Below, piece by piece: positions 21,438-38,174 of a stretch of 64,000 nt of DNA. Source of the stretch: Streptomyces sp. NBC_00250 (GTDB lineage Bacteria; Actinomycetota; Actinomycetes; Streptomycetales; Streptomycetaceae); NCBI RefSeq assembly GCF_036192275.1, contig NZ_CP108088.1, forward strand, positions 8,356,001 to 8,420,000. The letters are read 5' to 3'. A program made the position numbers and the translations under genes. Positions within the stretch are counted from its first letter, which is position 1. Each line of letters begins with the position of its first letter. Below the pieces are notes generated by a model. That model did no database searches. It worked only from the letters and a program-made list of their open reading frames with translations, and was not told the DNA's origin.

Positions 21438-21860
21438 GGTCCCATCCTGGTGGCGGACCCCCTCCCGCATTGCACAGGTAAGCGATTTCCCTGGGTGCCT
21501 TCCGTTCGTCGAGTTGTGGCCAGGTGGCGATGCGCCGCCGCGATCTCGCGATCGAGGGATTCACGGCTCTGCGGGCCGCGTACGCCAGGGGTCGAACAGT
21601 GGCTGCGCGGCACCCTCGGCGCAGCAGGGTCCGCGCTCGGCTGACACCTCCCCGAGGCACGCTGGCGGAGCGATCTGGAAGCACCCCTCACGGTGCGTGC
21701 TGCGGCCGTGACACTGCGGGTCTGCGGTCATCTGCCCGCACGCCGGGCAGCCGCCGCGCCGGACATGCCCCCTGGAGAACGCGCCATCGCCCGGCCCAAC
21801 AGCGGCAGGGCTCGGAAAACAAGGCGCCGCGCGTGTTTTGCCTGTGTTGTGGGCGCCACG
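21438..21860. other. Intergenic region, no gene recognised
   Basis: The region between the ThuA gene and the LuxR promoter holds only short frames that mirror one another on both strands. No terminator with a convincing stem was seen. Confidence 0.4.
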
Positions 21861-21889
21861 TTGCCGTGTCTGCTGGATCGACCTACCGT
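21861..21889 (+). promoter_or_regulatory. HrdB-like promoter, probably leaderless transcript
   Basis: TTGCCG (21861-21866), a 17-base spacer and TACCGT (21884-21889) lie seven bases before ATG 21897. The stretch from GACCTAC to ATGGCCACT is nearly identical to that of the paralogue starting at 1548. There is no Shine-Dalgarno sequence. Confidence 0.6.
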
Positions 21890-21896
21890 TCCGGAT

Positions 21897-24236
21897 ATGG
21901 CCACTCCTGTGCGGACTCGCTGGGGTGATACCGGCATGCCGGTGGAGTTGACGACCTTCGTGGGGCGTCGGGAGGCCATCACTGCGGTCAGGGCCGCGCT
22001 GTCCGAGTTCCGGGTTGTGACCCTGACGGGTATCGGCGGCGTTGGCAAGACGCGGCTGGCGATGCGGGTGGCTACCGCCCTTCGGAGGGCGTTCGCGGAC
22101 GGTGTGTGGTTCATCGACCTGTCCGCGGCGACGACTCGCACGGCGTTGGACGCGTCCGTGATCGAGGCCCTGCGGATCCACGACCGGTCGGGGCATGAGG
22201 CCGCGGACGTCATCCTGGACTTCCTGTCCGAGCGGCAGGTTCTGCTCCTCCTCGACAACTGCGAACAGATCGTCGCTGAGGCCGCGTCCTTGATCAACAG
22301 GGTGATCCGCCGGGCGCCGCGGGTACGGATCTTGGCGACGAGCCGCGAACGCCTGTGGGCGACCGGTGAGTGTGTGTGGCGGGTTCCGCCACTGCGCGTC
22401 CCGGATCCGGATCTCAGAGTGGGAGGCGCGCGGAGTGCACCGGCGCCGGTGCAGTACCCGGCGCTGGTGCTGTTCGCGGAGCGGGCCGCGGCGGCCAGTG
22501 GGGCCTCCCCTGACAGGGAGGACTGGCCGGAGGTGGCGCGGTTGTGCCGCAGGCTGGACGGTTTGCCTCTGGCCATCGAGCTGGCCGCCGTCCAGACCCG
22601 GGTGTTCTCCCCGGGGCAGCTGGTCCGGCGTTACGACGAGCGGCTCGGGGCGATGGGCACGCCCGACCGCACGGTGCCCGACCGGCACCGCACCCTGGAG
22701 GCGGCGATCGAATGGAGTTATGAACTGTGCACGCCGCACGAGCGGCTCCTGTGGTCCCGGGCTTCGGTGTTTGCCGGCAGGTTCGGCCTGGATGCGGCCG
22801 AAGGCGTCTGCTCGGGCGAGGACCTACCGCGGGAGGAGGTCCTGGACATCCTCGCCGGACTGGTGGACAAATCGATCCTGGTCCCCGAGGAAGAACTCGG
22901 CGAGCTGCAGTACCGGCTGCTCGAAACCCTCGCCCAGTACGGGGCCACCCGGCTGCGCGCAGCGGGCGAAGAGGGGATGCTCGCCAGGCGCCACCGCGAC
23001 TGGTACCTGCAGCAGACCGAGAAGATGGCCACGCAGTGGTGGGGCCCCGACCAGCTGGACTGGTCGCGGTGGTTGCGTCGTGAGTACCGCAATCTGCGGG
23101 CCGCTGTGGAGTACTGCGTGACGACGACAGGGGAAGGACAGGCCGGGCTGAAGCTCACCGCCGGACTGCTGCCGCACTGGCATGCGGGCGCTGAGGCGAG
23201 TGAGGGGCGGCTGTGGCTGGAGAGGGCCCTGGCCGCCGACACGGAACCCACCCTGGCCCGCGCGATGGCCCTCCGGAGTCTGGCCTCGATCTGCGCCAGG
23301 CGGGCGGACTACGCCCCTGCCGAGGCGGCCCTGAAAGACTGCCACATCGTGGCGCGGCACCTGAACGACCCGCTCATGGTCGCCCGTGCGCACAGCGTCG
23401 AGGCGGAGCTGGCGGTGAACCAGGCCGACTACGCCACGGTGCTCGCCCGCGCGAAGCAGGCACTGGCGTGCCCCGAGTACGCCGGAGGGCCGGAGCGGGC
23501 ACAGCTGTTGGCCGCTGTGATCATCGCGCACGCGATGCTCGGCCACTACGACGAGGCGGTCAGCGCCCACGAGGAGGCAGAACGCTGCAGCGTGGAGTTC
23601 GGGGGGCATGCGGACCTAGTGTGGGCGCTGGCCGGCCGGGCCATCGCGGAGTTCGGCGCCGGCGACCACCAAGCGGTGATCCGGTATGCGAGGGAATGCA
23701 TCCGGATCGCACGTGACTATGACAACGTGATGGGTCTGGCCACTTCCTTTTTGCTACTGGTTCGCTCCTTGGTGGCCGAGGGCGATTTCGGACGCGCCGC
23801 CGAACTCCTCGGAGCGCGTCGGCAGGTCTGCAACGAGCTCGGAGTACCTGCCCTCAGCGAGATGGAGTCCGCGGTGAATGATGCTCTCGCCGCGCAGCTC
23901 AGAGCGGAGCTCGGTGGGACGCCCTTCGAGGCGGCCGTGGCGCGGGGCTACGCCCTCGATCTCGACGCGGCGATCGACCATGCGCTCGGCATCGAAGGCG
24001 ATGAACCCGGGCGGTCTGCCGATGCGGGCACCGCGGACGCGGAGCCCAGTCTGCTGACCCCACGGGAACGCCAGGTCGCGGGCCTGGTGGCAAGGGGCCT
24101 GTCCAACCGGAAGATCGCCGAGGACCTGGTGATCTCCCCACGGACCGTCGAAGGGCACGTGGATCACATCCTCACGAAGCTCGGCTTCACCTCTCGCGCC
24201 CACATAGCCGCCTGGGCCGCCCGTCAGGGCGGCTGA
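21897..24236 (+). CDS. LuxR-family ATPase transcriptional regulator (NB-ARC-like)
   Basis: The 779-residue protein begins MATPVRTRWGDTGMPVEL. It has Walker A GIGGVGKT near residue 50, Walker B VLLLLDNCEQI, and a GLPLAIELAA motif typical of NB-ARC/STAND ATPases. A helical TPR-like sensor region follows. A C-terminal LuxR HTH (LTPRERQVAGLVARGLSNRK then SPRTVEGHVDHILTKLGF) ends at residue 779. It is a cytoplasmic ATP-dependent regulator with an unknown inducer. It is the full-length sister of the gene cut by the left window edge. The next gene, 24294, is a further paralogue about 57 bases downstream and is probably co-transcribed. Confidence 0.9.
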   Translation: MATPVRTRWGDTGMPVELTTFVGRREAITAVRAALSEFRVVTLTGIGGVGKTRLAMRVATALRRAFADGVWFIDLSAATTRTALDASVIEALRIHDRSGHEAADVILDFLSERQVLLLLDNCEQIVAEAASLINRVIRRAPRVRILATSRERLWATGECVWRVPPLRVPDPDLRVGGARSAPAPVQYPALVLFAERAAAASGASPDREDWPEVARLCRRLDGLPLAIELAAVQTRVFSPGQLVRRYDERLGAMGTPDRTVPDRHRTLEAAIEWSYELCTPHERLLWSRASVFAGRFGLDAAEGVCSGEDLPREEVLDILAGLVDKSILVPEEELGELQYRLLETLAQYGATRLRAAGEEGMLARRHRDWYLQQTEKMATQWWGPDQLDWSRWLRREYRNLRAAVEYCVTTTGEGQAGLKLTAGLLPHWHAGAEASEGRLWLERALAADTEPTLARAMALRSLASICARRADYAPAEAALKDCHIVARHLNDPLMVARAHSVEAELAVNQADYATVLARAKQALACPEYAGGPERAQLLAAVIIAHAMLGHYDEAVSAHEEAERCSVEFGGHADLVWALAGRAIAEFGAGDHQAVIRYARECIRIARDYDNVMGLATSFLLLVRSLVAEGDFGRAAELLGARRQVCNELGVPALSEMESAVNDALAAQLRAELGGTPFEAAVARGYALDLDAAIDHALGIEGDEPGRSADAGTADAEPSLLTPRERQVAGLVARGLSNRKIAEDLVISPRTVEGHVDHILTKLGFTSRAHIAAWAARQGG

Positions 24237-24293
24237 CAAGGAGCAGCAGTCGCAGATGCGATCGTCCCAAGAGAGCGGGTGCAACCATTGAAC

Positions 24294-26657
24294 ATGGCAG
24301 ATACCGTTCCGTTCCACCGCGGCTCCACCGGGGAGATGCCCGCCGAGCTGACGAGCTTCGTGGGGCGGATGGAGGACATCGGCAAAGTGAGTGCGCTCCT
24401 GTCCGATTCCAGGGTGGTCACGCTGACCGGACCCGGAGGCATCGGCAAGACACGGCTCGCCCTGCAGGTGGCCACTCGGGTTCGCCGGTCGTTCGGGGGC
24501 GGCATGCGCTTCGTCGACCTGGCGCCCCTGACGGACGGTGGTCTACTGGCCTACTCGCTGGTGGACGCACTGAGGATCGACAGCGCGGCCAGGGGCGGTG
24601 GGCTGGAGGCTGTCACTGCCTTCCTTCGCGAGCGGAACATGCTCCTGGTGCTCGACAACTGCGAGCACGTCGCTTCGGCCTGTGCGGAACTCATCCGTGT
24701 GGTCCTGCAGCAGGCCCCTGATGTCCGGATGCTCGTGACCAGCCGGCACTCCTTGGGCATGAGAGGAGAGCCCGAGTGGCCTGTGAAGGCGCTTCCGGTG
24801 CCGGCTCCGCAGGATCCGGGCGGTGGTCGTCCCATGACGCTTGCGGCTGCCGCCGAGTATCCAGGGATTACGCTGTTCGCCCAGCGCGCCGCAGCAGCGA
24901 GCGGATTCCTTCTCTCGGAGGAGAACGTAGCCACGGTCGCACTGGTCTGCCTTCGGCTGGACGGCCTGCCGCTGGCGCTCGAGTTGGCCGCAGGCCTGAC
25001 TCGGGTGTTGTCCCCGGGGCAGATCCTCCAGTATATCGAGAACCAGTCTGGTGTCCTGGCGACGAGGGACCGCGCGGTCCCCACCCGGCAACGCTCCCTG
25101 AGGGCCACCGTCGACTGGAGCCATGAGCTCTGTTCGGACGAAGAACGCCTGCTGTGGGCTCGGTCCTCTGTGTTCGCCGGCTGGTTCGGCCTGGCTGCGG
25201 CCGAGGACGTGTGCGGCGGGGAGGACCTGCCGGCCGGGCTGGTCCTCGAGACGGTCACCGGCCTCGCGGACAAGTCGATCTTGATGAGGCAGGAGCGGCT
25301 CGGAGGCGTGCAGTACCGGTTTCTGGACACGCTCGCTCAGTACGGGCGGGAGCGCTTGCAAGAGTCCGGCCGTCAGCCTGAATTCGCCCGGCGGCATCGG
25401 AACTGGTTCCTTGCCGTGGCCACGCAGATGGAGAAGGAGTGGTTCGGCCCCGAGCAAGTCCGTTGGGCGGGGCGGATGCGGGCGATGCGCGCCGATCTGC
25501 GCGCCGCTCTCGAGTTCAGTCTCTCCGCTCCTGGTGAGAGCCAGGAGGCCATTCGGATCCTCGCGGCCATGGACGCATGTTGGGTTGCGTCCGGGCCTGT
25601 AGGGGAAGGCCGCCACTGGCTGAAGCGGGCGCTCGCCCTCGATACCGAGCCGTCACGTGCGCGGGCCGGCGCCCTGAGGACCTTGGGGCATCTTACCTCC
25701 ATCCAGGGCGATCAGGCCGCTTCCGCAGGGGTGCAGCGGGAGTGCGAGAGCCTCGCGGAGCGATTCGGAGACCGGCCACTGGCGGCGAGTTCCCTGGCCA
25801 GTCAAGGGCTGATCGCCCTGAGCGACGGTGACCTGGCCGCGGCAGTCGCACTGGGTAAAGAAGCTCTGCGACGCCTTGGAGAGGTGGACGGGACGGACTC
25901 GGCCGAGCTGCAGGCCAAGGTGCAGGCGCTCCTCCTGCTGGCCCTGGCCCAAGACCAGCTCGGAGACTTCGACCAAGCCGCAGCAGCCGCCGAGGAGGCC
26001 CTCGGCTACTGCGTGAACCACGGGGAGCAGTGGTTTCGCTCCTGGGCGCTCATCGCCCTCGGCTTCGCCGAACTCGGCCGACTCGATCCGATCGCAGCAG
26101 TCGGCCGAGGGCGTGAAGTCCTCCGGATCGCGCAGGCCTTCAGGGACATCACGGGCACGGGCCTGGCCACCCTGCTCATGGCGGGGGCGGGTGTCGTCAG
26201 TGGCGAGAACGAGCGCGGCGCCGTTCTCCTGGGCATCACCGAGAGGCTGGGCGAGAAGGCCACGCTGCTCAGGTCCATCGCCTTCTACGACAGCACGAGG
26301 AAGCTCTTTGGGAAACTGGCCCGCGAGCAACTCGGCGAGGGCCCGTTCGACGCAGCCGTGGCCCGCGGGCACGGCTTCGGCATCGACCAGGCGGTCGCTT
26401 TCGCCCTCGGCGTGACCATTGGCGAGGATGCGACTGCCCGGACCGGGTCGCCCGCGTCTGGCAAGGATCTGCTGAGCCGCCGGGAGTGGGAGGTCGCCAC
26501 TCAGGTCTTCCGGGGTCTGTCCAATAAGGAGATCGCCGCAGCACTGGCCATCTCCCCGCGCACCGCTGAGGGCCATGTCCAGAAGATCCTCGTCAAGCTC
26601 GGGTTCCGCTCCCGCACACAGATCGTCACCTGGATGGCCGGCCACTCAGACGCTTGA
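24294..26657 (+). CDS. LuxR-family ATPase transcriptional regulator, second tandem paralogue
   Basis: This 787-residue regulator has the same layout as its upstream neighbour: MADTVPFHRGSTGEMPAEL, Walker A GPGGIGKT, Walker B MLLVLDNCEHV, GLPLALELAAGLTRV, a TPR-like region and a C-terminal HTH (LSRREWEVATQVFRGLSNKE then SPRTAEGHVQKILVKLGF). The start is chosen at ATG 24294 because it aligns with the paralogues; a GTG at 24279 would add five residues. The tandem copies share overall design but have diverged, so they probably sense different signals. The HATPase gene follows after its own promoter module. Confidence 0.88.
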   Translation: MADTVPFHRGSTGEMPAELTSFVGRMEDIGKVSALLSDSRVVTLTGPGGIGKTRLALQVATRVRRSFGGGMRFVDLAPLTDGGLLAYSLVDALRIDSAARGGGLEAVTAFLRERNMLLVLDNCEHVASACAELIRVVLQQAPDVRMLVTSRHSLGMRGEPEWPVKALPVPAPQDPGGGRPMTLAAAAEYPGITLFAQRAAAASGFLLSEENVATVALVCLRLDGLPLALELAAGLTRVLSPGQILQYIENQSGVLATRDRAVPTRQRSLRATVDWSHELCSDEERLLWARSSVFAGWFGLAAAEDVCGGEDLPAGLVLETVTGLADKSILMRQERLGGVQYRFLDTLAQYGRERLQESGRQPEFARRHRNWFLAVATQMEKEWFGPEQVRWAGRMRAMRADLRAALEFSLSAPGESQEAIRILAAMDACWVASGPVGEGRHWLKRALALDTEPSRARAGALRTLGHLTSIQGDQAASAGVQRECESLAERFGDRPLAASSLASQGLIALSDGDLAAAVALGKEALRRLGEVDGTDSAELQAKVQALLLLALAQDQLGDFDQAAAAAEEALGYCVNHGEQWFRSWALIALGFAELGRLDPIAAVGRGREVLRIAQAFRDITGTGLATLLMAGAGVVSGENERGAVLLGITERLGEKATLLRSIAFYDSTRKLFGKLAREQLGEGPFDAAVARGHGFGIDQAVAFALGVTIGEDATARTGSPASGKDLLSRREWEVATQVFRGLSNKEIAAALAISPRTAEGHVQKILVKLGFRSRTQIVTWMAGHSDA

Positions 26658-27420: not shown

Positions 27421-28311
27421 CTACATCCCGTGAGCGGCTCTGCCCACGGCGCGGCTGATGCGATCACGGACCACCTCGGTGGAGACGTAGGAGAGCGCCT
27501 CTACCAGCGAGTCAGCGACGGCGGTGAACTGGCCCTCCTGCTGGCCCAGATGGGCGTCGAGGAAGGGGACCACAGACCCTGTGGCGGCACGGCGGGCCTG
27601 CCGTGCGTACAGCACGGTGAGGGAGAAGGCCCAGCAGGCGTGCAGGAAGCCGTAGACGGGGCGCTGGGTGCCTCGCCAGGGGGAGAAGAAGGTGACGTCG
27701 GCGGGGAGGTGCACGTCGTGCGCGGCCAGGGCGTCGTTGAGCCAGTTGTGGGCGGCCTCGTGGATCAGGTCGCGGGCCAGGATCTCGGGGTGGGCGGTGT
27801 AGTCGGTGAAGACGGTGCCGGGGAGGCGGGTGAGGGCCCAGCTGTGGAGGGTCTCGTCGAGTCGGCGGCGGTTGAGCAGGCAGATGACGGGGGCGTGCTG
27901 GGTGAGCAGGGTGCCGAAGCCGTGCTCGGTCGCGGAGGCGAGGGCGGCACGAACGAGGTCACGGGCCTCGGGTGAGGCCGGGCTGGTGTCGGGGCCTACG
28001 AGGTAGTACGCGGTTTCGGAGATCTCTGAGCGGAGCAGTTCCCCCGGGCGCGGGCTGAGCACGATGTGCGGGCCGGCCGACAGGTGGGTCAGGTCTCGCA
28101 CCGTCGCATTGCGGTACCAGTCGAGGCGGTCCGCGTCCCGGGCGCGTGCGGAGTGTTCGGCGCCTTCGAGCAGGTGGTGGGCCACGGCGTAGTCGAGGGC
28201 GGACGAGCCGAGGCGGTTGCCGAGTACGGAGGCGACACGGCTGGTCCGTAGGCGCTGGTGGTCGGCGATGCCGTCGAGGGCGACCAGGACTTCCGGGGAG
28301 AGAGTGCTCAT
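27421..28311 (-). CDS. HExxH-motif putative peptide-modification protein (RiPP maturation)
   Basis: The ATG at 28311 gives 296 residues with HEAAH at residues 184-188 inside ARDLIHEAAHNWLNDAL, the hallmark of the HExxH family found in RiPP clusters. Members of this family have been reported to act as iron/2-oxoglutarate beta-hydroxylases of peptide residues; that activity is inferred here. There is no signal peptide, so it is cytoplasmic. It is the last gene of the minus-strand operon and follows the 53-residue peptide gene after a GC-rich hairpin. The combination with radical SAM and oxygenase genes supports a peptide-tailoring role. Confidence 0.8.
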   Translation of the reverse strand: MSTLSPEVLVALDGIADHQRLRTSRVASVLGNRLGSSALDYAVAHHLLEGAEHSARARDADRLDWYRNATVRDLTHLSAGPHIVLSPRPGELLRSEISETAYYLVGPDTSPASPEARDLVRAALASATEHGFGTLLTQHAPVICLLNRRRLDETLHSWALTRLPGTVFTDYTAHPEILARDLIHEAAHNWLNDALAAHDVHLPADVTFFSPWRGTQRPVYGFLHACWAFSLTVLYARQARRAATGSVVPFLDAHLGQQEGQFTAVADSLVEALSYVSTEVVRDRISRAVGRAAHGM

Positions 28312-28330
28312 CTGGGGCTCCGGGGATGGA

Positions 28331-28361
28331 ACGGGGCCGGGCGGGACGGGCCCGGCCCCGT
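28331..28361 (-). terminator. Attenuator-like hairpin between peptide gene and HExxH gene
   Basis: ACGGGGCCGGGC (28331-28342) and GCCCGGCCCCGT (28350-28361) form a perfect 12-bp stem with a seven-base loop. It lies six bases beyond the peptide-gene stop. There is no T-run. Such a structure would favour peptide mRNA over the distal HExxH gene, a common arrangement in RiPP operons. Confidence 0.6.
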
Positions 28362-28366
28362 GGCGG

Positions 28367-28528
28367 TCAGGCCTCGGTGGTGGGCTCAGCGGCGTCGGGC
28401 TGCACCGTGGTGGCCAGCCAGGTCTCGGTGGCCGCGTTGGAGGTGTGCGCGGTGGTGCGCACGGGGTCGCTGTCGCGCAGGGACGCGACTGCCTCCAGGA
28501 ACTCGTCGAACGTCTTGTCTTCTGCCAC
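28367..28528 (-). CDS. Candidate RiPP precursor peptide (53 residues)
   Basis: A GTG start at 28528, preceded by AGGAG about ten bases upstream, encodes 53 residues. The N-terminal part (MAEDKTFDEFLEAVASLRDS) is acidic and helical, as expected of a leader. The C-terminal part runs from DPVRTTAHTSNAATETW through LATTVQPDAAE to PTTEA. It has no Cys, one Trp, one His and many Thr/Ser, so thioether chemistry is unlikely. C-C crosslinking at Trp and beta-hydroxylation of Asn, Asp or His are more plausible. It lies between the oxygenase and HExxH genes in the same direction and is followed by a hairpin. The precursor role is inferred from context and size. Confidence 0.65.
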   Translation of the reverse strand: MAEDKTFDEFLEAVASLRDSDPVRTTAHTSNAATETWLATTVQPDAAEPTTEA

Positions 28529-28618
28529 TGCTCGCTCTCTCCTCTGGTCGGGGCCGTGGGTTGGGGGAGGGGCCGTTGTGGGGCGGGCCGCGGGGGTCGG
28601 TCATGGCGGCGAAGCCTC

Positions 28619-29338
28619 CTACCCGGAGACGAAGAGTGTGAGGAACTTGCGAACGCGGCCGGTGCGGACCGGTTCGGTGCCGTGGACGAGCTGGCTGCCG
28701 AAGAGCACGAGCGTGCCGGGAGCGGGTGCGACGCTCCATCGGGTGCGGGGCATGGTGCGGAACCAGGGGGAGGACATGTCCGTCCCGTCGTGTGCGAAGC
28801 GCATCCTCTGGGCGTAACCCGACCCTGTCGGCGCCTCGGCGGTGGTCCAGATGGTGTCGCTGCCCGTGGTCTCCACGTAGAACGCGCCGCCAGTCTCCTG
28901 GACGTCGGTGAGAGTGACCGTCGCGGCGGCGATCTGGCGGGGACGGGTGAGGGGATCGGGGGCGATGCCGTCGGCATGTGGGGTGACGTACTGGCCGGCA
29001 CCGTATTCGAGGTAGATCCACGGCCGGTGGCCGGTGACCGACGGCAGCGTGCGCGTGATGGCGGGCATGTGGACCTTCAGGGCCTGGTCGAGGAGGGTGG
29101 TCGCCTCGCGCGGGATGTCGGTCATCTCGATCCGGCTGGCCGGCTCGTAGACGTCCTGCGCCTCGGCGGGGGAGTGACCGGGGATCTCGTGGATGGTGGT
29201 GCGGCGGCCAGTGCCGTACCGGTCGCGTCCGAGGGAGTTGAGCGTGTCGTCCATGACGAGGTTGAGTCGCTCGACCTCGTCCGGCTTGAGGAAGCCCTCC
29301 ACGGTACGGATCGACAGAGTCTCGGCGATGTGGATCAT
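28619..29338 (-). CDS. 2-oxoglutarate/Fe(II)-dependent oxygenase
   Basis: The ATG at 29338 overlaps the radical SAM stop as ATGA, giving translational coupling and a 239-residue protein. The iron-binding facial triad is visible as His121/Asp123 in YVTPHADG and His219 in SQLVHGTEPV. Arg228 or Arg230 is suited to holding 2-oxoglutarate. The fold is that of prolyl-4-hydroxylase/2OG-Fe(II) enzymes. It probably hydroxylates or desaturates the neighbouring peptide or a small-molecule intermediate. It is immediately upstream of the peptide gene. Confidence 0.82.
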   Translation of the reverse strand: MIHIAETLSIRTVEGFLKPDEVERLNLVMDDTLNSLGRDRYGTGRRTTIHEIPGHSPAEAQDVYEPASRIEMTDIPREATTLLDQALKVHMPAITRTLPSVTGHRPWIYLEYGAGQYVTPHADGIAPDPLTRPRQIAAATVTLTDVQETGGAFYVETTGSDTIWTTAEAPTGSGYAQRMRFAHDGTDMSSPWFRTMPRTRWSVAPAPGTLVLFGSQLVHGTEPVRTGRVRKFLTLFVSG

Positions 29339-31194
29339 TGCTCGCCTCCGCATGCGCAGGGGGTGGAAGGCGGGGCAGAGGCGGCCTCGGCCAGGGCCTC
29401 CGTGAGTACGTGTACGGCCTGGGCGAGGTCCTCGAAGTACTCGGCAGGCGTGGTGCCGGGAGCGGGTACGAGATGGAGGTCGAGCGTCGGATACACCCGG
29501 CCGGTGGTGCGGCACGTGAGCTCGCTGCGACCGAGGAGCAGCGAACACGCGCCGGGTAGGGAGGACTCGGCACGGCTGGCGGCTCGGCACAGGCGCGCTG
29601 CTGTACGTGTGTACTCGCCGCGGTCGCGCGGCAGGATGCCGACCGCGGCGAAGCGGGGCTCGGTTTCGGGGAGGCCGGCGTAGGTGTGGCCCTGGCAGCT
29701 GTCATAGGTGACGGTGTTCCAGCCCGCCGCGAGCACGTCGACGACCGGGCGGACGCCGGGCTCGATGCCCTCGTACCACTGAGGATGGTGGGGGTCGAGA
29801 TCGTCTGCCTCGTGCACGCCGGGGAGGCCGACCGTGTTGATGTTGCCGTGGGTGCTGACTTGCAGGTGCGCGGGCGTGCGGGGCACCGTGGGGTCGTCCC
29901 AGCGGGCCAGGAAGGCGGCGACGTGGTGCATGTCGTTGGGGCGGACGGGACGCCAGCGCAGCCGGGAACAGGAGGTGCCGGGCGGTAGGTCCGGCTGGGC
30001 GAGCAGGGCTGCGACGCCGTCGATCAGGCGCATGCGATGGTCGCAGTACGCGTCTTCGTCGCCCGCGGCGGCGAAGCGGAGGCGGACCGCCGGGCAGCCC
30101 GCGCCGCAGGTGTCGCGGTAGTCGCAGGTCGTGCACTTCGTGACCAGGGAGCGTGCTTGCTGAAGCAGGGGAGAGCGGCCCTGGGCGCTGGCTACGTCCG
30201 GCTCGGCGTGCACGCCGCCGAGCGCGGCGAGGCCGGCCTGCGGCCAGGGCAGCTCGTCGCAGCTTCCCAGGCGGTCATCGGGATAGAGGGTGAGGACGTG
30301 GTCGCACTTCAAGTCGGAGAAGTGACAGGACCGGGTTTGTAGACCCCTTAGGCGGCGGATGACGGAGACGACGGGTTCCAGCTTGACGCGGCGGAACAGG
30401 CCGTCGCCGACCCAGTGGCGGGCGGCCTCCAGCACGAAGTCGGCGTACTGGCGAGGCGTGACGGCCCAGGCCGGGCCGGTGGGGCCGATGGCACGTCGCT
30501 GGAGTGCCCGACTGGTCGGCGCACGAGATCCGGCCGCCGTGGTCGACCGGGTGACCGCCGCGTCGAAGCACGGCACCAGGCTGACCGTCGTCACGGCGGG
30601 AAAGGAGGAGAGGTGCTCCATGACCTCGGAGGCCCGACCGAGGACGTACGGGGTGACGGCGCAGATGACGCCTACTCGGCGGTCCCGACGGCCGAGGAGT
30701 TCCAGGGCTTCGACCACTCGGGGATGCGTGGGGCGGCCGTCGTAACCGACCCGCCACGAGTTCCCGAGCGCGTCCCCGTCGAGGGAGATGCCGATCTCCA
30801 GCTCCGGACAGTGCCGCTCGAACAGGTCCAGCCAGGCGTCGTCGAGCTGGAGGCCGTTGGTCTGGAGGCTCACGCGGATGACGTTCGGCTGTGCGGCGAG
30901 CGCGTCCAGGATCTCCGCGATCCGTTCCCGGCCGGCGGTCAGGGGCTCCCCGCCGTGGAGCTCGACGCTGAGCGGACGCCCGGAGAAGATCGAACCGAGG
31001 CGGTGGACCTGTGCCGCGCTGATACGGGCACCGCCCGGTGACTCCTTGCGCTTCTCGAAGCAGTACAGGCAGTCGATGTCGCAGGTCTCTCCCCGGAGCT
31101 TGAGGATGACGGAGACCGCCGTGTCCGGTCCGGTGCTCGACAACGGGGCGTAGAGATTCTCCAGGTTCGTGGGTGCGGTGCGGGCGACGGGCAT
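29335..31194 (-). CDS. Radical SAM/SPASM peptide-maturation enzyme
   Basis: A 619-residue enzyme with the CxxxCxxC cluster at Cys38, Cys42 and Cys45 (GETCDIDCLYC). VELHGGEPL follows as the usual GGEP SAM contact. A SPASM-type cysteine group, KCTTCDYRDTCGAGCP, lies near residue 370. This layout is typical of peptide-modifying enzymes such as FxsB-like cyclophane synthases. About 180 further residues follow, including STHGNINTVGLPGVHEAD and DSCQGHTY, a C-terminal domain I do not recognise. The product would be an iron-sulfur enzyme acting on the peptide encoded downstream. The start at 31194 has GGAG about eight bases upstream. Confidence 0.85.
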   Translation of the reverse strand: MPVARTAPTNLENLYAPLSSTGPDTAVSVILKLRGETCDIDCLYCFEKRKESPGGARISAAQVHRLGSIFSGRPLSVELHGGEPLTAGRERIAEILDALAAQPNVIRVSLQTNGLQLDDAWLDLFERHCPELEIGISLDGDALGNSWRVGYDGRPTHPRVVEALELLGRRDRRVGVICAVTPYVLGRASEVMEHLSSFPAVTTVSLVPCFDAAVTRSTTAAGSRAPTSRALQRRAIGPTGPAWAVTPRQYADFVLEAARHWVGDGLFRRVKLEPVVSVIRRLRGLQTRSCHFSDLKCDHVLTLYPDDRLGSCDELPWPQAGLAALGGVHAEPDVASAQGRSPLLQQARSLVTKCTTCDYRDTCGAGCPAVRLRFAAAGDEDAYCDHRMRLIDGVAALLAQPDLPPGTSCSRLRWRPVRPNDMHHVAAFLARWDDPTVPRTPAHLQVSTHGNINTVGLPGVHEADDLDPHHPQWYEGIEPGVRPVVDVLAAGWNTVTYDSCQGHTYAGLPETEPRFAAVGILPRDRGEYTRTAARLCRAASRAESSLPGACSLLLGRSELTCRTTGRVYPTLDLHLVPAPGTTPAEYFEDLAQAVHVLTEALAEAASAPPSTPCACGGEQ

Positions 31195-31224: not shown

Positions 31225-32094
31225 CTACGCGCCATCGGTGGAAACCGTGGACAGCCACCCGAGAAGCTGTCCGCCGGTGATGGGGATGTGGACGTCGCCG
31301 CGGCGAAGGAACCAGCCGTCGGCGTACCGCTGGGGCAGCCAGCCGGCGTCAGGGGCGCCCAGGTTGGGGGGCTTCTGCAGCGGGTCGTCGACGGGCCAGC
31401 AGTCCAGGAGCGCTCTGGTCACGCGTCGCTGAACCGGACGGAACCACTCCCACGTTTCCGGGCGGGCGGGGTCGATCGGCGGATGGAACGGCGCGCTGGG
31501 TACAAGTAGCGGCAGCCACTTGTCGCCCAGGACCGGGTGGCCGGCCGCCGCGCAGCCGAGCGCGGCGAGACAGGTTTCCAGCTTCCGGCACACGACGTCG
31601 GCCGACTCGACCAAGCCGTCTTCGACGAGGCCGGTCAGGTCCTCGGCGAGACTCGCCGCCACCTCGGCCTGGTCGGCGACCGCCCAGCGTCGGTAGCCCT
31701 GGCGCTCCCCGGGAGCGAGCACCGGGTTCCATTTTCCGGAGCTGTAGGAGAGAGCGGTACGCAGACACATGAGGTCGTGCATCGAGGCGCGTACCCGGCG
31801 GAACGATCCGAGGTCGTCGCGGTGGACGTCGAAGGAGCGGAGCAGGTGACGGAGCTCTTCTGCCCGCTGCGGCGCCGTCGCCTGGAGGTCGACACGGACG
31901 CCGTCCACGATGCGCGACTCCCATGTCGGAAAGGCGCCGTCCACGATGCCACGCAGGTCGATGTCGCTCGCCGCGTGGGCGAAGCCGCAGGCGAGGGCTC
32001 CCTCCAGCCAGACCTCGCGGGCCTCGCCGGACGCGAGCAGTGCCTGGGCGACTCTGTCGGCGATCTCCCGGCGCAGTCGTGCCGATGGGTTCAC
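31225..32094 (-). CDS. Nucleotidyltransferase-fold protein
   Basis: The GTG at 32094 overlaps the dehydrogenase stop (GTGA), giving 289 residues. The segment EGALACGFAHAASDIDLRG matches the NTase fingerprint hG-x(9-13)-D-h-D with Asp-Ile-Asp metal ligands. A helical C-terminal half resembles that of aminoglycoside-type nucleotidyltransferases. It could transfer a nucleotide to a small molecule or peptide; the substrate is unknown. Its place between the dehydrogenase and radical SAM genes, with coupled start codons, ties it to the operon. Confidence 0.7.
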   Translation of the reverse strand: MNPSARLRREIADRVAQALLASGEAREVWLEGALACGFAHAASDIDLRGIVDGAFPTWESRIVDGVRVDLQATAPQRAEELRHLLRSFDVHRDDLGSFRRVRASMHDLMCLRTALSYSSGKWNPVLAPGERQGYRRWAVADQAEVAASLAEDLTGLVEDGLVESADVVCRKLETCLAALGCAAAGHPVLGDKWLPLLVPSAPFHPPIDPARPETWEWFRPVQRRVTRALLDCWPVDDPLQKPPNLGAPDAGWLPQRYADGWFLRRGDVHIPITGGQLLGWLSTVSTDGA

Positions 32095-33014
32095 CGGTGG
32101 CCTCCTTCGATCAGGATCTTGTCGTCGGCGGTGATCTCCCTGAGGAGATCGATGGCCCATCGGTCGAGCGCGCCGCGCACGTCGGACCGCTGGGCGCCGA
32201 TGTGGGGCGAGGTCAGGAAGTTGAGCGGCGTCGTGGAGCCGGTGAGGAGCGGCAGGTGCTCCCGCTCGACCGGGTCGAGGGCGAGGCCCGAGAGCCTCTC
32301 GTCCGCCAGCGCCCGCAGGCAGGCGGCGACGTCGAGGGTCTCCAGCCGCCCGGCGCAGATCAGCAGAGGCCGCTGCGGAGCGACGCGTGTGAGGAAGTCC
32401 TCGCCGATGAGCTGCTCGGTCGTGGGACGCAGCGGCAGAGCGATCACGTGTACCTGCGACTGCTCCATGAGGGCTGTCGGCGACAGCTCCCGCAGACCGG
32501 GAGGGTTCGACGGCCACGCAGCGAAGGCCGTGCGGTCCATGAAGGGCGCGAGGGCCCAGTCGGCGGCCAGCCCTACCGGGCCCGCGCCCCAGATCCCTGC
32601 GGCCAGGCTCCCGAGTGACGCACCCATGCACGCCTGCTTCTCGTGCTGGCCGAGCAATAGCGCGTGCTGCCCCAACGGGATCCGCCGGGCCAGGGCGAGG
32701 GCGGCGGCGAGTACCCACTCGCCCACGGCGCCCGCGCCTGCCTCGGCGTTGCGGTGCAGTGTGATGCCACGGTGCCGGAGGGCGTTCACGTCGATGTGGT
32801 CGATGCCGGAGCCGGTCCGTATGACGTGCCGCAGACGAGGGAGCGCGTCGAGCTCCCGCTCGCCTAGGCGGACGCCGGAACGCAGGACGAGCATGCCCGT
32901 GTCGGCGGGCGGAGGCGAGTGCAGGTCCGGCAACTCGTGCACGAGGACATCGGGCAGGGCGCGGCGGATCGCGTTCGTGTCCGCCGCACCGCGTAGCACC
33001 AGGACAGTGTTCAT
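32091..33014 (-). CDS. D-isomer-specific 2-hydroxyacid dehydrogenase
   Basis: A 307-residue NAD(P)-dependent enzyme of the phosphoglycerate/D-lactate dehydrogenase family. The Rossmann nucleotide site is seen as GIWGAGPVGLAADWAL. The catalytic triad is Arg in LICAGRLETLD, Glu in LDPVEREHLP and His in TSPHIGAQRSD. It would interconvert a 2-oxo acid and a D-2-hydroxy acid. Next to a PEP-mutase-like enzyme, phosphonopyruvate is one imaginable 2-oxo acid substrate, but this is inference only. Four-base overlaps link it to the genes on both sides. Confidence 0.82.
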   Translation of the reverse strand: MNTVLVLRGAADTNAIRRALPDVLVHELPDLHSPPPADTGMLVLRSGVRLGERELDALPRLRHVIRTGSGIDHIDVNALRHRGITLHRNAEAGAGAVGEWVLAAALALARRIPLGQHALLLGQHEKQACMGASLGSLAAGIWGAGPVGLAADWALAPFMDRTAFAAWPSNPPGLRELSPTALMEQSQVHVIALPLRPTTEQLIGEDFLTRVAPQRPLLICAGRLETLDVAACLRALADERLSGLALDPVEREHLPLLTGSTTPLNFLTSPHIGAQRSDVRGALDRWAIDLLREITADDKILIEGGHR

Positions 33015-33682
33015 CCGAGGGACTCCGGCTTCTCGTACCGGCCGAAGGCGAGATCGCCCTCGCCGACGACGACGGTCACGGGCGAAGGTGCGCCGAAGTA
33101 CGCGTCGCAGGCGCGCTTCACCCCCGGGAGCCCGTCCCAGGCCCGCGGATTGACCGCGGTGTCCGCGTAGTCGTCGACGAGCAACACGCCCGTCGGGGCC
33201 AGGCGGGTGACGCAGTGCTTGAGTCCCGTGAAAGTCGAGCCGTAGAAGTCGCCATCCAGGTAGGCGAACGCGATCTCCTCGGGCAGCTCATTGGGAAGGG
33301 TCTCGTCGAACCATCCCGCATGTATGACCGGCGCCGGCCTGCCCCACGTCGTGTGCGTGGCGCGCACGTCGTCCGGGGACGACCGGAGCTCGCCTGTCGC
33401 CAGATGGTCCGAGTCCTCGGCGCCGGGCGCGGGCATGCCCTGGAAGGAGTCGTAGACGTGGATCTCGCGGTCGCGGTCGCGGTCGCCCAGCGAGTCGAGC
33501 ACGCTACGGATCCAGAGGGCCATCGCGCCCCTGTAGCAGCCGAGTTCCACCACGGCTCCCGGCAGACCGCAGGCGGTCAGGTCGGCGAGCTCGTCGGCGA
33601 CCACACGGAGCCGGTCGGCACAGACCGTCCCGGAATGCTCCCGTAGCAGCCACTCCCGCAGATCCTTCAGCGTCGGATCCAT
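33011..33682 (-). CDS. TylF/macrocin-O-methyltransferase-like SAM-dependent methyltransferase
   Basis: The 223-residue protein has the SAM site VVELGCYRGAMALWIRSVL, then HVYDSFQGMP, LDGDFYGSTFTGLKH and GVLLVDDYAD. This order is typical of the TylF/MycF class, in which the two Asp residues bind Mg2+. Family members methylate sugar or other hydroxyls in natural products. ATG 33682 is used; in-frame GTG codons at 33691 and 33694 are alternatives. It overlaps the dehydrogenase start by four bases. Confidence 0.82.
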   Translation of the reverse strand: MDPTLKDLREWLLREHSGTVCADRLRVVADELADLTACGLPGAVVELGCYRGAMALWIRSVLDSLGDRDRDREIHVYDSFQGMPAPGAEDSDHLATGELRSSPDDVRATHTTWGRPAPVIHAGWFDETLPNELPEEIAFAYLDGDFYGSTFTGLKHCVTRLAPTGVLLVDDYADTAVNPRAWDGLPGVKRACDAYFGAPSPVTVVVGEGDLAFGRYEKPESLG

Positions 33683-33687
33683 GAAGG

Positions 33688-34158
33688 TCACCACCTGTCC
33701 ACGAAGGGGTCGGCGAGCTCCCCGCTCAACGCCGCCGACAGCGGCCGGTTGATCCGGGGCAGCAGGTACACGTCGCCCAGACGTTCCAGCGGAACCCACT
33801 CGAAGCCCACCTGGATGGGGTCCGGCGGTTCCGGCATGCGCGGCTCGGCGTCGTCCACCTGCTCGGCGAGGAAGTTGAACTGGACCTTCTGTACGTCCCC
33901 GAACTCGCCCTGCCACGACTCGGGGACGTACTCGACGACGCACAGCAGACGCCGGGCCACGACCTGGAGGCCGGTCTCCTGGGCGACCTTGCGGTTCACG
34001 GCCTGGCGCAGGTCCTCGCCGACCTGGGCCTTGCCGCCGGGAAGGTTGTAGTGGAACCCGGCCTCGTCGTCGTACGACAGCAGCAGGACGGCACCGTCGC
34101 GCACGATCGCCGCCTTCACGGAGACACTGATCCGAGGCAGTTCGGGCGTCAGAGGCAC
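33688..34158 (-). CDS. Nudix hydrolase-like protein with degenerate Nudix box
   Basis: A 156-residue Nudix-fold protein starting at GTG 34158. The Nudix box is GGKAQVGEDLRQAVNRKVAQ followed by ETGL. The REUxEExGU core reads RKVAQETG, so two of the conserved Glu positions are Lys and Gln. Catalytic metal binding may therefore be altered or lost, and it might bind a nucleotide without hydrolysing it. Nudix proteins cleave nucleoside diphosphate-X bonds; here it may remove a nucleotide intermediate in the pathway. It overlaps the PEP-mutase-like gene by ten bases. Confidence 0.75.
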   Translation of the reverse strand: MPLTPELPRISVSVKAAIVRDGAVLLLSYDDEAGFHYNLPGGKAQVGEDLRQAVNRKVAQETGLQVVARRLLCVVEYVPESWQGEFGDVQKVQFNFLAEQVDDAEPRMPEPPDPIQVGFEWVPLERLGDVYLLPRINRPLSAALSGELADPFVDRW

Positions 34159-35018
34159 GACAGCGCCTCCGGTTCGCCGACGCGCATCAGGTCGCCGACC
34201 TCCGCCAGAGACCCCGCGACGGTGGAGCGGAAACTCCCTCCGCGCCGGAACTGACGAGCGGCGGTGCGCATACCCGCGAGGGCGGCACGGCTGAGCTGGT
34301 TCGCGTAGATACAGAGGCCGAAGCCGGCCTCGCCGAGTTCAGCGGCGCTCAGGTCAGGGAACGCCGTCGGCACGCTGACCAGCGGTACGCCGTGACTCCA
34401 CGCACGTCCGATGCCCCACGCCTGATCACCGGTCGCGTCCTTGGAGTGGATGAGTACCGCATCCGCCCCGGCCTCGGCGTACGCCTCGGCGCGCGCGATC
34501 GCCGTGGCCATGTCCTCCCCGGCGATCAGGGCCTCGGTGCGGGCCACGACCACGAGGCCGTCACCGGCGACCTTCCGTATACGCCCCACCTGCTCGCACA
34601 GAAGGTCCCGGTCGGCGAGCTTCTGGGCCCGGTGGGCCGCGAAGCTGTTGCACTTCGGGTACGCGCTGTCCTCGACACACACCGCAGCGGCTCCGGCGCG
34701 CATCAGGTCGTACGCGAACCGCTCCGCCGTGCGCCCCGAGCCGCCCGCGTTGTCGATGTCCACGATGACGGGCAGTTCGGTGACACGGCCGAGTGAGGCG
34801 ACCACGTCGGACAGGTCCCGGGGGCCCAGAACGTTGGCGTCCGGCAGCCCGGAGGCCGCGGACACCTCCAGACCGCTCACCCACAGGGCGTCGAAGCCCG
34901 ATTCCGCTGCGACATGCGCGGCGAGCGCGTTGACCGCACCGATCGCCAGGAGCGGGTGCTTCCGCTCGCTGTCGGCGAGGGCCTCACGCAGATGCATCGC
35001 CTTCGTGCCGTCAGTCAT
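34149..35018 (-). CDS. PEP mutase / phosphonopyruvate hydrolase-like enzyme (isocitrate lyase superfamily)
   Basis: GGAGGAG seven bases before ATG 35018 supports this 289-residue protein. It has family segments LWVSGLEVSAASGLPDANVL, VDIDNAGGSG (Asp87 and Asp89, Mg2+ ligands) and VVARTEALIAG. The signature EDKx5NS of PEP mutases appears as EDSAYPKCNS (116-125), with Ser replacing the catalytic Lys. PEP mutase forms the C-P bond of phosphonates, and relatives with other residues here hydrolyse phosphonopyruvate or cleave C-C bonds. The true reaction is therefore uncertain. Its operon with a hydroxyacid dehydrogenase, kinase and nucleotidyltransferase suggests a phosphonate-like or carboxylate branch. 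Confidence 0.78.
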   Translation of the reverse strand: MTDGTKAMHLREALADSERKHPLLAIGAVNALAAHVAAESGFDALWVSGLEVSAASGLPDANVLGPRDLSDVVASLGRVTELPVIVDIDNAGGSGRTAERFAYDLMRAGAAAVCVEDSAYPKCNSFAAHRAQKLADRDLLCEQVGRIRKVAGDGLVVVARTEALIAGEDMATAIARAEAYAEAGADAVLIHSKDATGDQAWGIGRAWSHGVPLVSVPTAFPDLSAAELGEAGFGLCIYANQLSRAALAGMRTAARQFRRGGSFRSTVAGSLAEVGDLMRVGEPEALSCL

Positions 35019-35697
35019 GAGTTTCTCCTCCTTCCGCACGGGCGGCGAGCGACGGCACCAGCTGCCGTTCGCGCAGTACGTCCCAGGCGGTGAGCAGCAC
35101 CTCGGACCGGGGCCGGCGGGCGTCCAGGCGGACCACGTCGCCGAGGAGCGGGAACTCGTCGGGCTTCGTGACCACGGCCTCGTAGGTCTCGCGAACCCGG
35201 CTCTGGACGTCGTGCACGTCCCAGTCGGCCCGGACGGCGTCACCCTGGCGGGCCTGCGCCCGGCTCATCGAGGCGTCGGTCTCCAGGTCCAGGACGAGCG
35301 TGAGATCCGGGGCCGCGGTGAGCTGCGCGGCCAGCACCTCGTACGTCTCCGACACCCTCATGTCGTGTTTCACGGCGAAGAAGGCCAGCTCGCTGAGGAG
35401 CCAGCGATCCGCGATCACGGGCCGGGCCGGCCGCTGGGGGAGCACGAGGCGATCCAGCGTGGCCCGCTTGTCCGCCGCGATCGCGGACAGGTAGGCGTCA
35501 CGGTTCCCGGCGTTCGGCTGGTACTTGCCGGTGACGATGGCGGCGGCCTGGTCTGCGGCAAGGAAGTTGGTGGTGAGCATGCACAGCGGGGTGACGCCGT
35601 AGAGCCCCTCCCAGAGCCGGAACAGGCCCTTGCGCAGCGTCGTCTTGCCGGTGCCGTCGAGCCCCTCGATGACGATGAACGGATAGCGGTGGTTCAT
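35011..35697 (-). CDS. Thymidylate-kinase-like P-loop kinase
   Basis: A 228-residue NMP-kinase-fold protein with Walker A EGLDGTGKTT at residues 11-20, VIADRWLLSELAF (compare the DRY/H motif of dTMP kinases), DLTLVLDLETDASMSRAQAR and a C-terminal helix. Housekeeping Tmk is usually elsewhere in the genome, so this is probably a pathway-specific kinase acting on a nucleotide or an unusual phosphate acceptor. The ATG at 35697 overlaps the upstream gene by four bases, and the stop overlaps the next gene by eight. Confidence 0.75.
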   Translation of the reverse strand: MNHRYPFIVIEGLDGTGKTTLRKGLFRLWEGLYGVTPLCMLTTNFLAADQAAAIVTGKYQPNAGNRDAYLSAIAADKRATLDRLVLPQRPARPVIADRWLLSELAFFAVKHDMRVSETYEVLAAQLTAAPDLTLVLDLETDASMSRAQARQGDAVRADWDVHDVQSRVRETYEAVVTKPDEFPLLGDVVRLDARRPRSEVLLTAWDVLRERQLVPSLAARAEGGETHD

Positions 35698-36455
35698 TCG
35701 ACCTGCCCCGCCCCCGTGCCGCCGGCGTACTTGGTGAAGCGACCCCGCCAGCGCGCCGTGGTGGACACCAGGTCCACCAGCCGCAGCTCTGCCAACTCGT
35801 CGATGAGGCGGGGGAGCTCGGGCTCGGCGCAGATGCCGGCCTCGATGGCCCGGCAGTACGCGGCGCGGAGGGCCGGGTCATCGTCGGAGTCACGCAGCGC
35901 CGCCTCCAGCACCCGCGTGGCCATGCCGTGGGCCACGACGCCCACCGCGGTGCCCAGGGCCCGTTCGTGGAGGGGGCCCGGGTGCGGCTCCAGCGTGATG
36001 TGGTGCACCCCGCGGTGGCGGATGACCGTGAAGAAGCCCACCCACCACGCGGCGGCGGCGGCGACGGCGGTCACGGCGTCGGACCAGGACGCCCCTGTCT
36101 GCCCCGCGAGGACGTTCTGGGCAGCGGTGTCGGCGGCGCGGTGAAGCGCCCCGCGCCGGTTCCGCGACTCCGCTCCGTGCCGCTGGGGCAGCTCCCACCA
36201 GAAGCCGAGCCCGGCGTCCTCCAGCAGCGCCATCGCGGGCCCGTCGCCTGCCAGCAGCGGAGACGGGCGTTGGGCCAGCACGGAGACATCGGCGCCCGGC
36301 ACGTCCGGCAGCGCCTTCTCCTCGGCGACGGCAGCCCGCCATTCGTCGAGATGGAGATGGAGCCGCTGGGTCAGCAGCCCGTCCGCCAGCGTCTGCCAGG
36401 CATGGGCCAGCGGCGGCGAACCGGGTGGCCGGGGCGGCATGGTCAACGAGGTCAC
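35694..36455 (-). CDS. Unknown protein, first gene of the minus-strand operon
   Basis: The GTG at 36455 (GAGG nine bases upstream) gives 253 residues with no family that I recognise. It is soluble and Ala/Arg-rich. A middle helical part has DAVTAVAAAAAWWVGFF and HRGVHHITLEPHPG, and the end is RFTKYAGGTGAGQVE. Possible metal-binding His residues occur in RGVHHI and VVAHGM. Its stop overlaps the kinase start as ATGA, so it belongs to the operon. The gap to the divergent XRE regulator (36456-36602) should hold the operon promoter. Confidence 0.65.
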   Translation of the reverse strand: MTSLTMPPRPPGSPPLAHAWQTLADGLLTQRLHLHLDEWRAAVAEEKALPDVPGADVSVLAQRPSPLLAGDGPAMALLEDAGLGFWWELPQRHGAESRNRRGALHRAADTAAQNVLAGQTGASWSDAVTAVAAAAAWWVGFFTVIRHRGVHHITLEPHPGPLHERALGTAVGVVAHGMATRVLEAALRDSDDDPALRAAYCRAIEAGICAEPELPRLIDELAELRLVDLVSTTARWRGRFTKYAGGTGAGQVE

Positions 36456-36543
36456 AGGTCGGATCCTCACGTCCGGGGAGTCGCGGCACGCGGCTCCGGT
36501 CGGTGGTGCTCCACCACGATGGCCGCCACGAAGGCCCACACCT

Positions 36544-36559: not shown

Positions 36560-36602
36560 CCCACCAGCGGAACGTGTCCGGGTGGTCGCAGAGCGAGAGA
36601 GA

Positions 36603-38174
36603 ATGCCGACCATGGTCGACAGCGGACAGCGGCGGTGTACGCGCTGCGGTGCCCTTCTCAGTCGCTTCAACGCCGGTACACGATGCGCCTCGTGCCAGGA
36701 CGGGCCGGCCGCCCGACGGGCCGACCCGGCCTTCTGGCGTGATCCGACGGTCCGGCGAGCCGTGGCCGCATGGGAACTCGGCACCGTCGTCAAGCTGTTC
36801 AGGAAGCACACGGGCCTCTCCCAGGCCGGCGTGGCGCGGATGGTCAGCATCGACCAGGCCGAGGTCAGCAGATTGGAACGTGGCCTCAAGCAGATCCGCG
36901 ACCGACGGCAGTTCGTCCAGTGGACCGATGCGCTGGGAGTCCCGGAGGAGCTGCTCGGGCTCCTGCCCACGGCCGATCCGCACATTCCCGACGCCACGCT
37001 CCGACCGGGAACGGCAGACACTGGAGCCCGCGGGTACGCGGCGCTGCCGGAAGGTCCGGGCCAGCTTCTGTTACCCGCCGGCCGGTCCGTGTCGACGACG
37101 GCGCTCCCCGTACTGACCCTTCCCGCGGCCTCCTTCCTCGGGGACAGCCTGAGACTCGACTCCCGCCCGGAGCTGGATGCCTGGCGCACCATGCCGATGC
37201 GCGCGCTCGTCGTCGCGAACCGCACGGTGGACGGGGCGGTCCGGCAGTTCGTCACCGACGCCCGACCGAGCGGCGTACGTGCCGCCGCCTCCGACCCGGT
37301 CGACATCCCCGCCGCGTACGAACTGGACGACCTGACTTACGGCATCCTGTGGGCCGTATCGGGATTCGAGGCGGCACTGCTCGGCGACGACCAGACCCTG
37401 CACACCTCGCTGGCTTCGCTCACCGCTTCCCCAGGCTCGCCGATCGCCTCCGACCAGGGACTGACCGAGGTCTCCCGGATGCTCATCGGCTCGGAGACCG
37501 CCGCCCGGTACATCCTGGGCCAGCGTGACCACCTGGGCGACGCACCCGTCTTCTGGACCAGGGAACAGCGCGGTGAGGAGGCGGCCACCTGGCTGTTCTT
37601 CCGGCACAAGTACCGCTATCTCGAACGAATGGCACCCCGGCGTCCGGGCGGTACCAGCGGCCGGGGGTTCTGCGTCCCCGAGACGGCGGTCGCCTCCTCG
37701 CCGGCGTACGAGCGCGTTCTGCTCTTCCTCGCCATCGCGGTCATGGAGTCCTTCGGCATCCGCACCTGGGTGACCGGTGACGGAGGCTTCGCCCACACCG
37801 ACGGCTTCGCGCTCTCCCACGGGCGCCGCGCCGTCATCGCCTCATGGGTACGCACCGATGGAGCGTCCCACCTCGCGGTCACCGCGCGGCCGGGAGCCCT
37901 CCGGACGTTCGCCGATGTGACGGGCCACGTCAGCCACCACTCGGCCACGGCGGCCGAGCGGGCCGGACAGCGCCTCGCGGCAACGGCGGAGTACCTCGGC
38001 CTCGACGCCTCCTGGCTCGGTCGCCGGTGCGCACAGTTGTCGGCCGTCGGCACGGAGCGGCTCGCCAGGCCGCGCAGTCGGCTGCTCGGCCTCGAAGGGC
38101 TGGAGGCCGCCTGCCGGTTCGTCGCCGAGCAGCTGGTGATCATTCCTCGGACCCGGACGGCGCCGACCCGATAG
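36603..38174 (+). CDS. XRE-family regulator with N-terminal zinc-ribbon-like motif
   Basis: The protein of about 523 residues begins with a four-Cys motif (CTRCGALLSRFNAGTRCASC). It is followed by an XRE HTH (FRKHTGLSQAGVARMVSIDQ, AEVSRLERG). About 400 residues without a recognised domain come next, perhaps a ligand-binding region. It is divergent from the biosynthetic operon and is the likeliest regulator of it, with the candidate operator at 36544. ATG 36603 is used; ATG 36612 is an alternative and has a better-spaced GAGAG ribosome site. Confidence 0.82.
   Translation: MPTMVDSGQRRCTRCGALLSRFNAGTRCASCQDGPAARRADPAFWRDPTVRRAVAAWELGTVVKLFRKHTGLSQAGVARMVSIDQAEVSRLERGLKQIRDRRQFVQWTDALGVPEELLGLLPTADPHIPDATLRPGTADTGARGYAALPEGPGQLLLPAGRSVSTTALPVLTLPAASFLGDSLRLDSRPELDAWRTMPMRALVVANRTVDGAVRQFVTDARPSGVRAAASDPVDIPAAYELDDLTYGILWAVSGFEAALLGDDQTLHTSLASLTASPGSPIASDQGLTEVSRMLIGSETAARYILGQRDHLGDAPVFWTREQRGEEAATWLFFRHKYRYLERMAPRRPGGTSGRGFCVPETAVASSPAYERVLLFLAIAVMESFGIRTWVTGDGGFAHTDGFALSHGRRAVIASWVRTDGASHLAVTARPGALRTFADVTGHVSHHSATAAERAGQRLAATAEYLGLDASWLGRRCAQLSAVGTERLARPRSRLLGLEGLEAACRFVAEQLVIIPRTRTAPTR

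Follow-up and report, generated by a model that had tools for sequence, protein, structure and literature searches.

A conserved 53-residue peptide encoded between radical SAM and HExxH enzyme genes in Streptomyces sp. NBC_00250 is most likely the precursor of a RiPP family

The 64,000-nucleotide stretch of the 9.27-Mb genome of Streptomyces sp. NBC_00250 analyzed here (contig NZ_CP108088.1, positions 8,356,001 to 8,420,000; the window) encodes on its minus strand a 53-residue peptide (28367..28528), located between the genes for an HExxH protein (27421..28311) and a 2-oxoglutarate (2OG)-Fe(II) oxygenase (28619..29338) and downstream of the gene for a radical S-adenosylmethionine (SAM)/SPASM enzyme (29335..31194). 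The peptide gene is real and conserved, and its role as a precursor is well supported. Peptide and cluster together most likely represent a family of ribosomally synthesized and post-translationally modified peptides (RiPPs), in which the surrounding enzymes probably cross-link, oxidize and decorate the peptide into a natural product. If this is correct, a new RiPP family extends across Streptomyces, Kitasatospora, Actinomadura, Nocardia and Actinospica and onto two linear plasmids. No published description of the peptide family was found in the literature on the motif, radical SAM/HExxH RiPPs, cyclophanes and triceptides or co-occurrence mining (the triceptide landscape and ChlBH being covered through references), and no paper tied to it was found in the literature on radical SAM enzymes with kinases, with phosphoenolpyruvate (PEP) mutases or with TYW3.

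The peptide gene comprises 53 codons from a GTG start to a TGA stop, with a ribosome-binding site, AGAGGAG, read by eye 10 nt 5' of the start (28539..28545, minus strand), and the peptide contains no cysteine. Among 5.8 billion proteins searched, 24 homologues were found at E<=1, the best with an E value of 3.8e-24; where sources name them, they are called 'hypothetical protein'. Among 29 distinct 45-nt core segments, amino acid identity reaches 0.654 in the peptide frame compared with 0.535 and 0.546 in the other two frames; the differences at codon positions 1, 2 and 3 are 0.209, 0.185 and 0.339, highest at the third. Pointing the other way, non-synonymous codon changes outnumber synonymous ones (65 and 34, compared with 17 close relatives), and an alignment of close relatives (alignment A1) has no invariant column past Trp37. 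Long overlapping frames are common in the window, which would suit an open frame arisen by chance in GC-rich DNA, but the homologues, the frame-specific identity, the third-position variation and the motif scan described below contradict this explanation and leave it a negligible probability. A sequence-only reading of the window had proposed this GTG frame with its ribosome site as a precursor lacking annotation, flanked on one strand by CxxxCxxC radical SAM, 2OG-Fe(II) and HExxH genes, and both the frame and its neighbors are confirmed, the 2OG-Fe(II) and HExxH genes by Pfam and NCBIfam scores, respectively. We looked for the absence of a conserved peptide from related clusters and for interruption of the frame in close relatives, and neither was found. 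The ATGA coupling also described there is present at the junction of the radical SAM and 2OG genes and absent on either side of the peptide gene, where spacers of 90 and 55 nt lie instead.

The conserved center of the peptide is T26-A27-H28-T29-S30 (28439..28453, minus strand), followed seven residues past Ser30 by Trp37 (28418..28420, minus strand). TAHTSN and W37 are kept in 25 of 25 rows of alignment A1, and F10, T26, A27, H28, T29, S30 and W37 are invariant in an alignment of 17 diverse precursors. A profile search matched 326 proteins at E<=10, and the top-scoring 120 of these were listed. In the 141 homologues collected, TAHTS is present in 136 and TRHTS in five, with variation underestimated because these are the best-scoring ones; Trp lies seven residues past Ser in all 136 TAHTS proteins, and the same spacing is seen in all five with TRHTS. 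Two places past Trp, the TAHTS proteins carry Ala (61), Thr (61), Ser (6), Pro (4) or Met, Glu, Ile and Val (1 each), and the peptides of the divergent type 4 clusters (see below) carry His. A 51-residue type 4 peptide with TAHSSAVSVKPW, one of 18 small-frame pairs common to the two type 4 loci (L076 and L077), has four further homologues, and a plasmid cluster of Kitasatospora cathayae (L085) encodes a 46-residue peptide with TMHSSREGADDW. Because of these peptides the motif was widened to T-x-H-[T/S]-S-x6-W, a rule formulated post hoc from divergent peptides already seen. In six frames of the window and 49 loci (910,531 bases) the rule gives 49 matches, one per sequence in 49 of the 50, with no extra match outside the peptides. 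The motif peptide is thus found in 48 of the 49 loci, the exception being L009, where the contig stops short of the peptide gene, and it is kept even where the radical SAM core is only ~42% identical to that of the window (genomes G024 and G378). The H-x-S-x6-W rule makes the clusters easy to find. With its leader, conserved core and adjoining modifying enzymes, this short ribosomal product has the make-up of a RiPP precursor. TETWLATTV, previously singled out as the center of the peptide, is mostly variable: Trp37 is invariant, LATTV is not.

A scan of GTDB genomes with the radical SAM enzyme yielded 45 loci, located in the five genera named above, and peptides are also listed under Micromonospora. 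Within the genus, two draws of 392 genomes, in agreement for the genomes listed, were searched with the peptide at E<=0.01 and with the radical SAM enzyme at E<=1e-40; the peptide was matched in 24 genomes and the enzyme in 27, with both in 22. All 21 radical SAM matches above 1000 bits lie in peptide-bearing genomes, and G290, where the enzyme is split, likewise carries the peptide. A match to the enzyme without a matched peptide occurred in G024 and G378, which have the divergent type 4 peptide, and in G028, G191 and G380, where the hits are partial only. In a phylum-wide draw of 396 genomes searched with the enzyme at E<=1e-60, the sole match was the window's own genome. Searching plasmids with the peptide of the window or that of type 4 gave no matches, whereas searching them with the radical SAM enzyme gave two clusters, on linear plasmids of S. 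clavifer (L084) and K. cathayae (L085). Location on linear plasmids may explain the patchy spread of the cluster.

The radical SAM enzyme (619 residues) belongs to the radical SAM/SPASM enzymes by its CxxxCxxC motif (CDIDCLYC), its SPASM cysteines and its fold. Its core fold resembles anSME and ChlB, and ChlB is its closest sequence in the PDB. C38, C42, C45, C297, C312, C354, C357, C363, C367 and C384 are invariant in 25 sequences; the enzyme of L015, outside these 25, lacks C38 and C354. The HExxH protein, with HEAAH at residues 184-188, is an aKG-HExxH-type peptide beta-hydroxylase by both its motif and its score (TIGR04267, 61.6 bits, cut-off 40), and H184, E185, H188 and H224 are invariant in 11 sequences. 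The 2OG-Fe(II) oxygenase, an accessory enzyme, scores 34.4 bits with PF13640 (cut-off 27) and lies above the cut-off of PF05721. These proteins were scored together with other cluster genes in the 49 loci by tblastn at E<=1e-5, where the presence of the radical SAM enzyme is by construction, as most loci were fetched through it. The HExxH protein is present in 48 of the 49 (L009 is cut), the 2OG oxygenase in 46, the TylF-type methyltransferase in 28 and a thymidylate-kinase-like protein in all 49. For the kinase-like protein, identity is only 28–30% in the loci of types 3 and 4, with agreement from Pfam in L025 and L076. The two iron oxygenases had earlier been seen as an uncommon pair; the pairing is not essential, with the 2OG enzyme missing from three of 49 loci and TIGR04267 proteins common in the genus (85 of 101 genomes).

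Conservation of the precursor, the motif within it and its linkage with the radical SAM and HExxH genes are observed, and every chemical step that follows is one that we infer. The acidic helical leader (F-x-x-F-[LV]-x-A-V) would guide the precursor to the radical SAM/SPASM enzyme, which would abstract a hydrogen at the beta carbon of Ser30 and join this carbon to the His28 imidazole (C2), so that a three-residue His-Thr-Ser cyclophane results. Beta-hydroxylation of a residue in the ring or next to it would then fall to the HExxH enzyme, a second oxidation may come from the 2OG oxygenase in clusters that have it, and the thymidylate-kinase-like enzyme could phosphorylate the product or an added group, a step suggested by the presence of the kinase in every locus. 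In the window, further decoration may involve the nucleotidyltransferase-like, NUDIX, PEP-mutase-like, hydroxyacid dehydrogenase and O-methyltransferase proteins. Taken as a whole, with decoration specific to each cluster type, this scheme is slightly favored, and a His28–Ser30 cyclophane followed by HExxH hydroxylation is the simplest reading; such a cyclophane would also explain why the middle residue is Thr or Ser. According to the available text of PMC12636437, the radical SAM–HExxH fusion ChlBH beta-hydroxylates Asp and His in dependence on a preinstalled cyclophane. Like ChlB/ChlH and FxsBH, the window system combines the same SPASM radical SAM core fold with a small precursor and a neighboring HExxH beta-hydroxylase. 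It differs in that its radical SAM enzyme is far below the NCBIfam cut-offs for such maturases, the HExxH protein is a separate gene, and a C-terminal extension, a T-x-H-[TS]-S-x6-W precursor and extra kinase and decorating genes are present. The triceptides (XncB, OscB, MscB, HaaB, YhhB, ScaB) share a three-residue motif with the aromatic residue first (PMC11002830), to which H-[TS]-S corresponds in 49 of the 50 sequences. Links from His-C2 to the beta carbons of Ala or Arg and from Phe to Ser serve as precedents, and a His-x-Ser link is not named in the available text of PMC11002830; the window system, for its part, is known from its genes.

Several observations weigh against this scheme. 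Trp37 is as invariant as the residues proposed to be linked and is not accounted for by a His–Ser link. The radical SAM enzyme scores below all NCBIfam cut-offs shown and cannot be placed in a cyclophane-maturase family, the cyclophane models being far under their cut-offs (FxsB 95.3 of 370 bits, YhhB 92.2 of 445, AmcB 87.9 of 425, GrrM 65.5 of 310), and its best raw NCBIfam match is the sulfatase maturase TIGR03942 (119.8 bits, cut-off 349.45). Among the operon proteins scanned, none matched a PqqD-like peptide-recognition Pfam family. The type 4 radical SAM enzymes (L076, 14502-15620; L077, 9387-10505) keep CxxxCxxC but have Thr, Glu, Ser and Ala at C290, C297, C312 and C367, so that their auxiliary cluster site differs, and judging from these residues they may not catalyze the same reaction. 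In two genomes the peptide has no radical SAM match, namely G149, where it lies near a contig end with the HExxH gene present, and G358, where the HExxH gene is partial.

The TIGR03942 match raises the alternative that the enzyme acts like a sulfatase maturase, oxidizing Ser30 to a formylglycine-like aldehyde that is later trapped or decorated, with His28 serving for recognition only. This score does not discriminate, as the TIGR03942 scores of six FxsB cyclophane maturases are the same (117.7–145.1 bits); these come from six of ten loci, of which three others belong to the present peptide family and one (L095) gave no frame. ChlB is moreover the better sequence match, His28 is as invariant as Ser30, and no sulfatase is found among the 10 operon proteins scanned. 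Identity as a sulfatase maturase was therefore set aside, and the aldehyde chemistry itself is unlikely. A crosslink in the Trp37 region, as originally proposed, is possible but ranks behind the His28–Ser30 link and is, if anything, slightly less probable than the aldehyde. Trp37 is invariant, with its fixed spacing to Ser30 in 49 of the 50 sequences, and known cyclophanes include some with Trp as a partner (PMC11002830, available text); the tightest conservation is, however, that of T-x-H-x-S, and the residues past Trp vary, leaving no fixed W-x-x motif.

Cofactors such as PQQ and mycofactocin are made from peptide precursors, and the peptide could similarly be trimmed to a small cofactor or signal molecule of a few core residues rather than a secreted defense peptide. 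The nearly frozen core with its variable tail and the nucleotide- and sugar-like accessory enzymes are consistent with this, but the accessory sets differ strongly among cluster types, which would be unusual for one cofactor, the distribution is patchy (24 of 392 genomes), and export is suggested by M16 peptidase and ABC exporter genes in L076 and an MFS gene in L025, making such a role improbable.

The C-terminal extension of the radical SAM enzyme (residues 400-619; 29338..29997, minus strand) is matched in 49 of the 49 loci, and in G024 and G378 (L076 and L077) it forms its own gene about 8 kb from the radical SAM core. It may bear a weak structural resemblance to TYW3, judging from weak structure matches. 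Kinship to TYW3 by sequence was rejected: the extension has no PDB sequence match at E<=10 and no Pfam match above cut-off, PF02676 (TYW3) is absent from the Pfam matches of 25 members, and PF02676 has no match in the window's genome (G000) at E<=0.01 in a search that was positive in two control archaea. In wybutosine synthesis, a single base is modified first by a radical SAM enzyme and later by TYW3. By analogy, the fusion of a radical SAM enzyme to a TYW3-like transferase might define a RiPP class in which the two halves act in turn on a peptide histidine: the His-Ser cyclophane is formed first, the crosslinked imidazole is then alkylated, and phosphorylation and cluster-specific decoration follow, giving a series of His-centered products, although we consider this a long shot. 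Two features would offer new and testable RiPP chemistry, namely the conserved extension of the radical SAM enzyme, which can also occur as a protein of its own, and the kinase in all loci examined. In the region 8901-12459 of L083 (G290), a 449-residue frame, by eye apparently of a mobile element, splits the radical SAM core from the C-terminal domain, and the peptide gene is intact.

The four cluster types were sorted by the genes present. Type 1 (27 loci) has the gene set of the window, with L085 lacking the 2OG oxygenase and TylF. Type 2 (18 loci) has NUDIX and protein-kinase-like proteins, with a serine hydrolase in 15 of 18, and type 3 (2 loci) has TylF, a chloramphenicol-phosphotransferase-like kinase, an MFS protein and a serine hydrolase; the 210- and 247-residue proteins of types 2 and 3 have no Pfam matches. 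Type 4 (2 loci) spans 6369-17620 in L076 and 1335-12494 in L077. Pfam, run on L076, identifies a nucleotide-sugar dehydrogenase, a glycosyltransferase 2, an epimerase, an AICARFT-like and two APH-like proteins; genes for the M16 peptidase and the ABC exporter lie upstream of these. The AICARFT (purH-like), a formyl-transfer enzyme, is odd beside a His-centered peptide.

Upstream of the radical SAM gene, past the region first described, the operon continues on the minus strand with seven more genes, to about 36539. These encode a nucleotidyltransferase-like protein (31225..32100; SDIDL motif by eye, no Pfam match above cut-off), a D-2-hydroxyacid dehydrogenase-like protein (32091..33014; PF02826, 64.8 bits), the TylF-type methyltransferase (33011..33703, start approximate; PF05711, 98.2 bits), a NUDIX hydrolase (33688..34158; PF00293, 45.3 bits), a PEP mutase/isocitrate lyase superfamily protein (34149..35018; PF13714, 145.6 bits for the longer frame 34149-35243), the thymidylate-kinase-like P-loop kinase (35011..35697; PF02223, 44.9 bits; TIGR00041, 65.6 bits, below its cut-off of 83.25) and the first operon gene, of no assigned function (35694..36539, start approximate), which has no Pfam match above cut-off and only a sub-threshold M24 match. 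A divergent XRE-type regulator (36582..38174, plus strand; PF13560, 39 bits) is matched in 21 of 45 loci (L002-L022). The upstream gene order is kept in these loci and also in L027, L034, L036, L042 and L045, there without a regulator match. Phosphonate pathways likewise have PEP mutase-family and nucleotidyltransferase-like genes together (PMC6697681, available text), but the EDKxxxxxNS motif given there as marking PEP mutases is replaced by EDSxxxxxNS in 27 of the 27 loci having the gene. A C–P bond is therefore not to be assumed; the Ser in place of Lys weakens the case for true phosphonate synthesis, and the motif suggests a possible new subfamily.

In L003 (Streptomyces ipomoeae), a short HExxH frame (10883-11530) with a late-starting tblastn match suggests that the gene is damaged or was sequenced incorrectly. 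In the window, the gene for a large LuxR-type regulator that contains NB-ARC and TPR parts (24279-26657, plus strand) converges on the operon end, and the frame at 21693-24236 looks similar to it.

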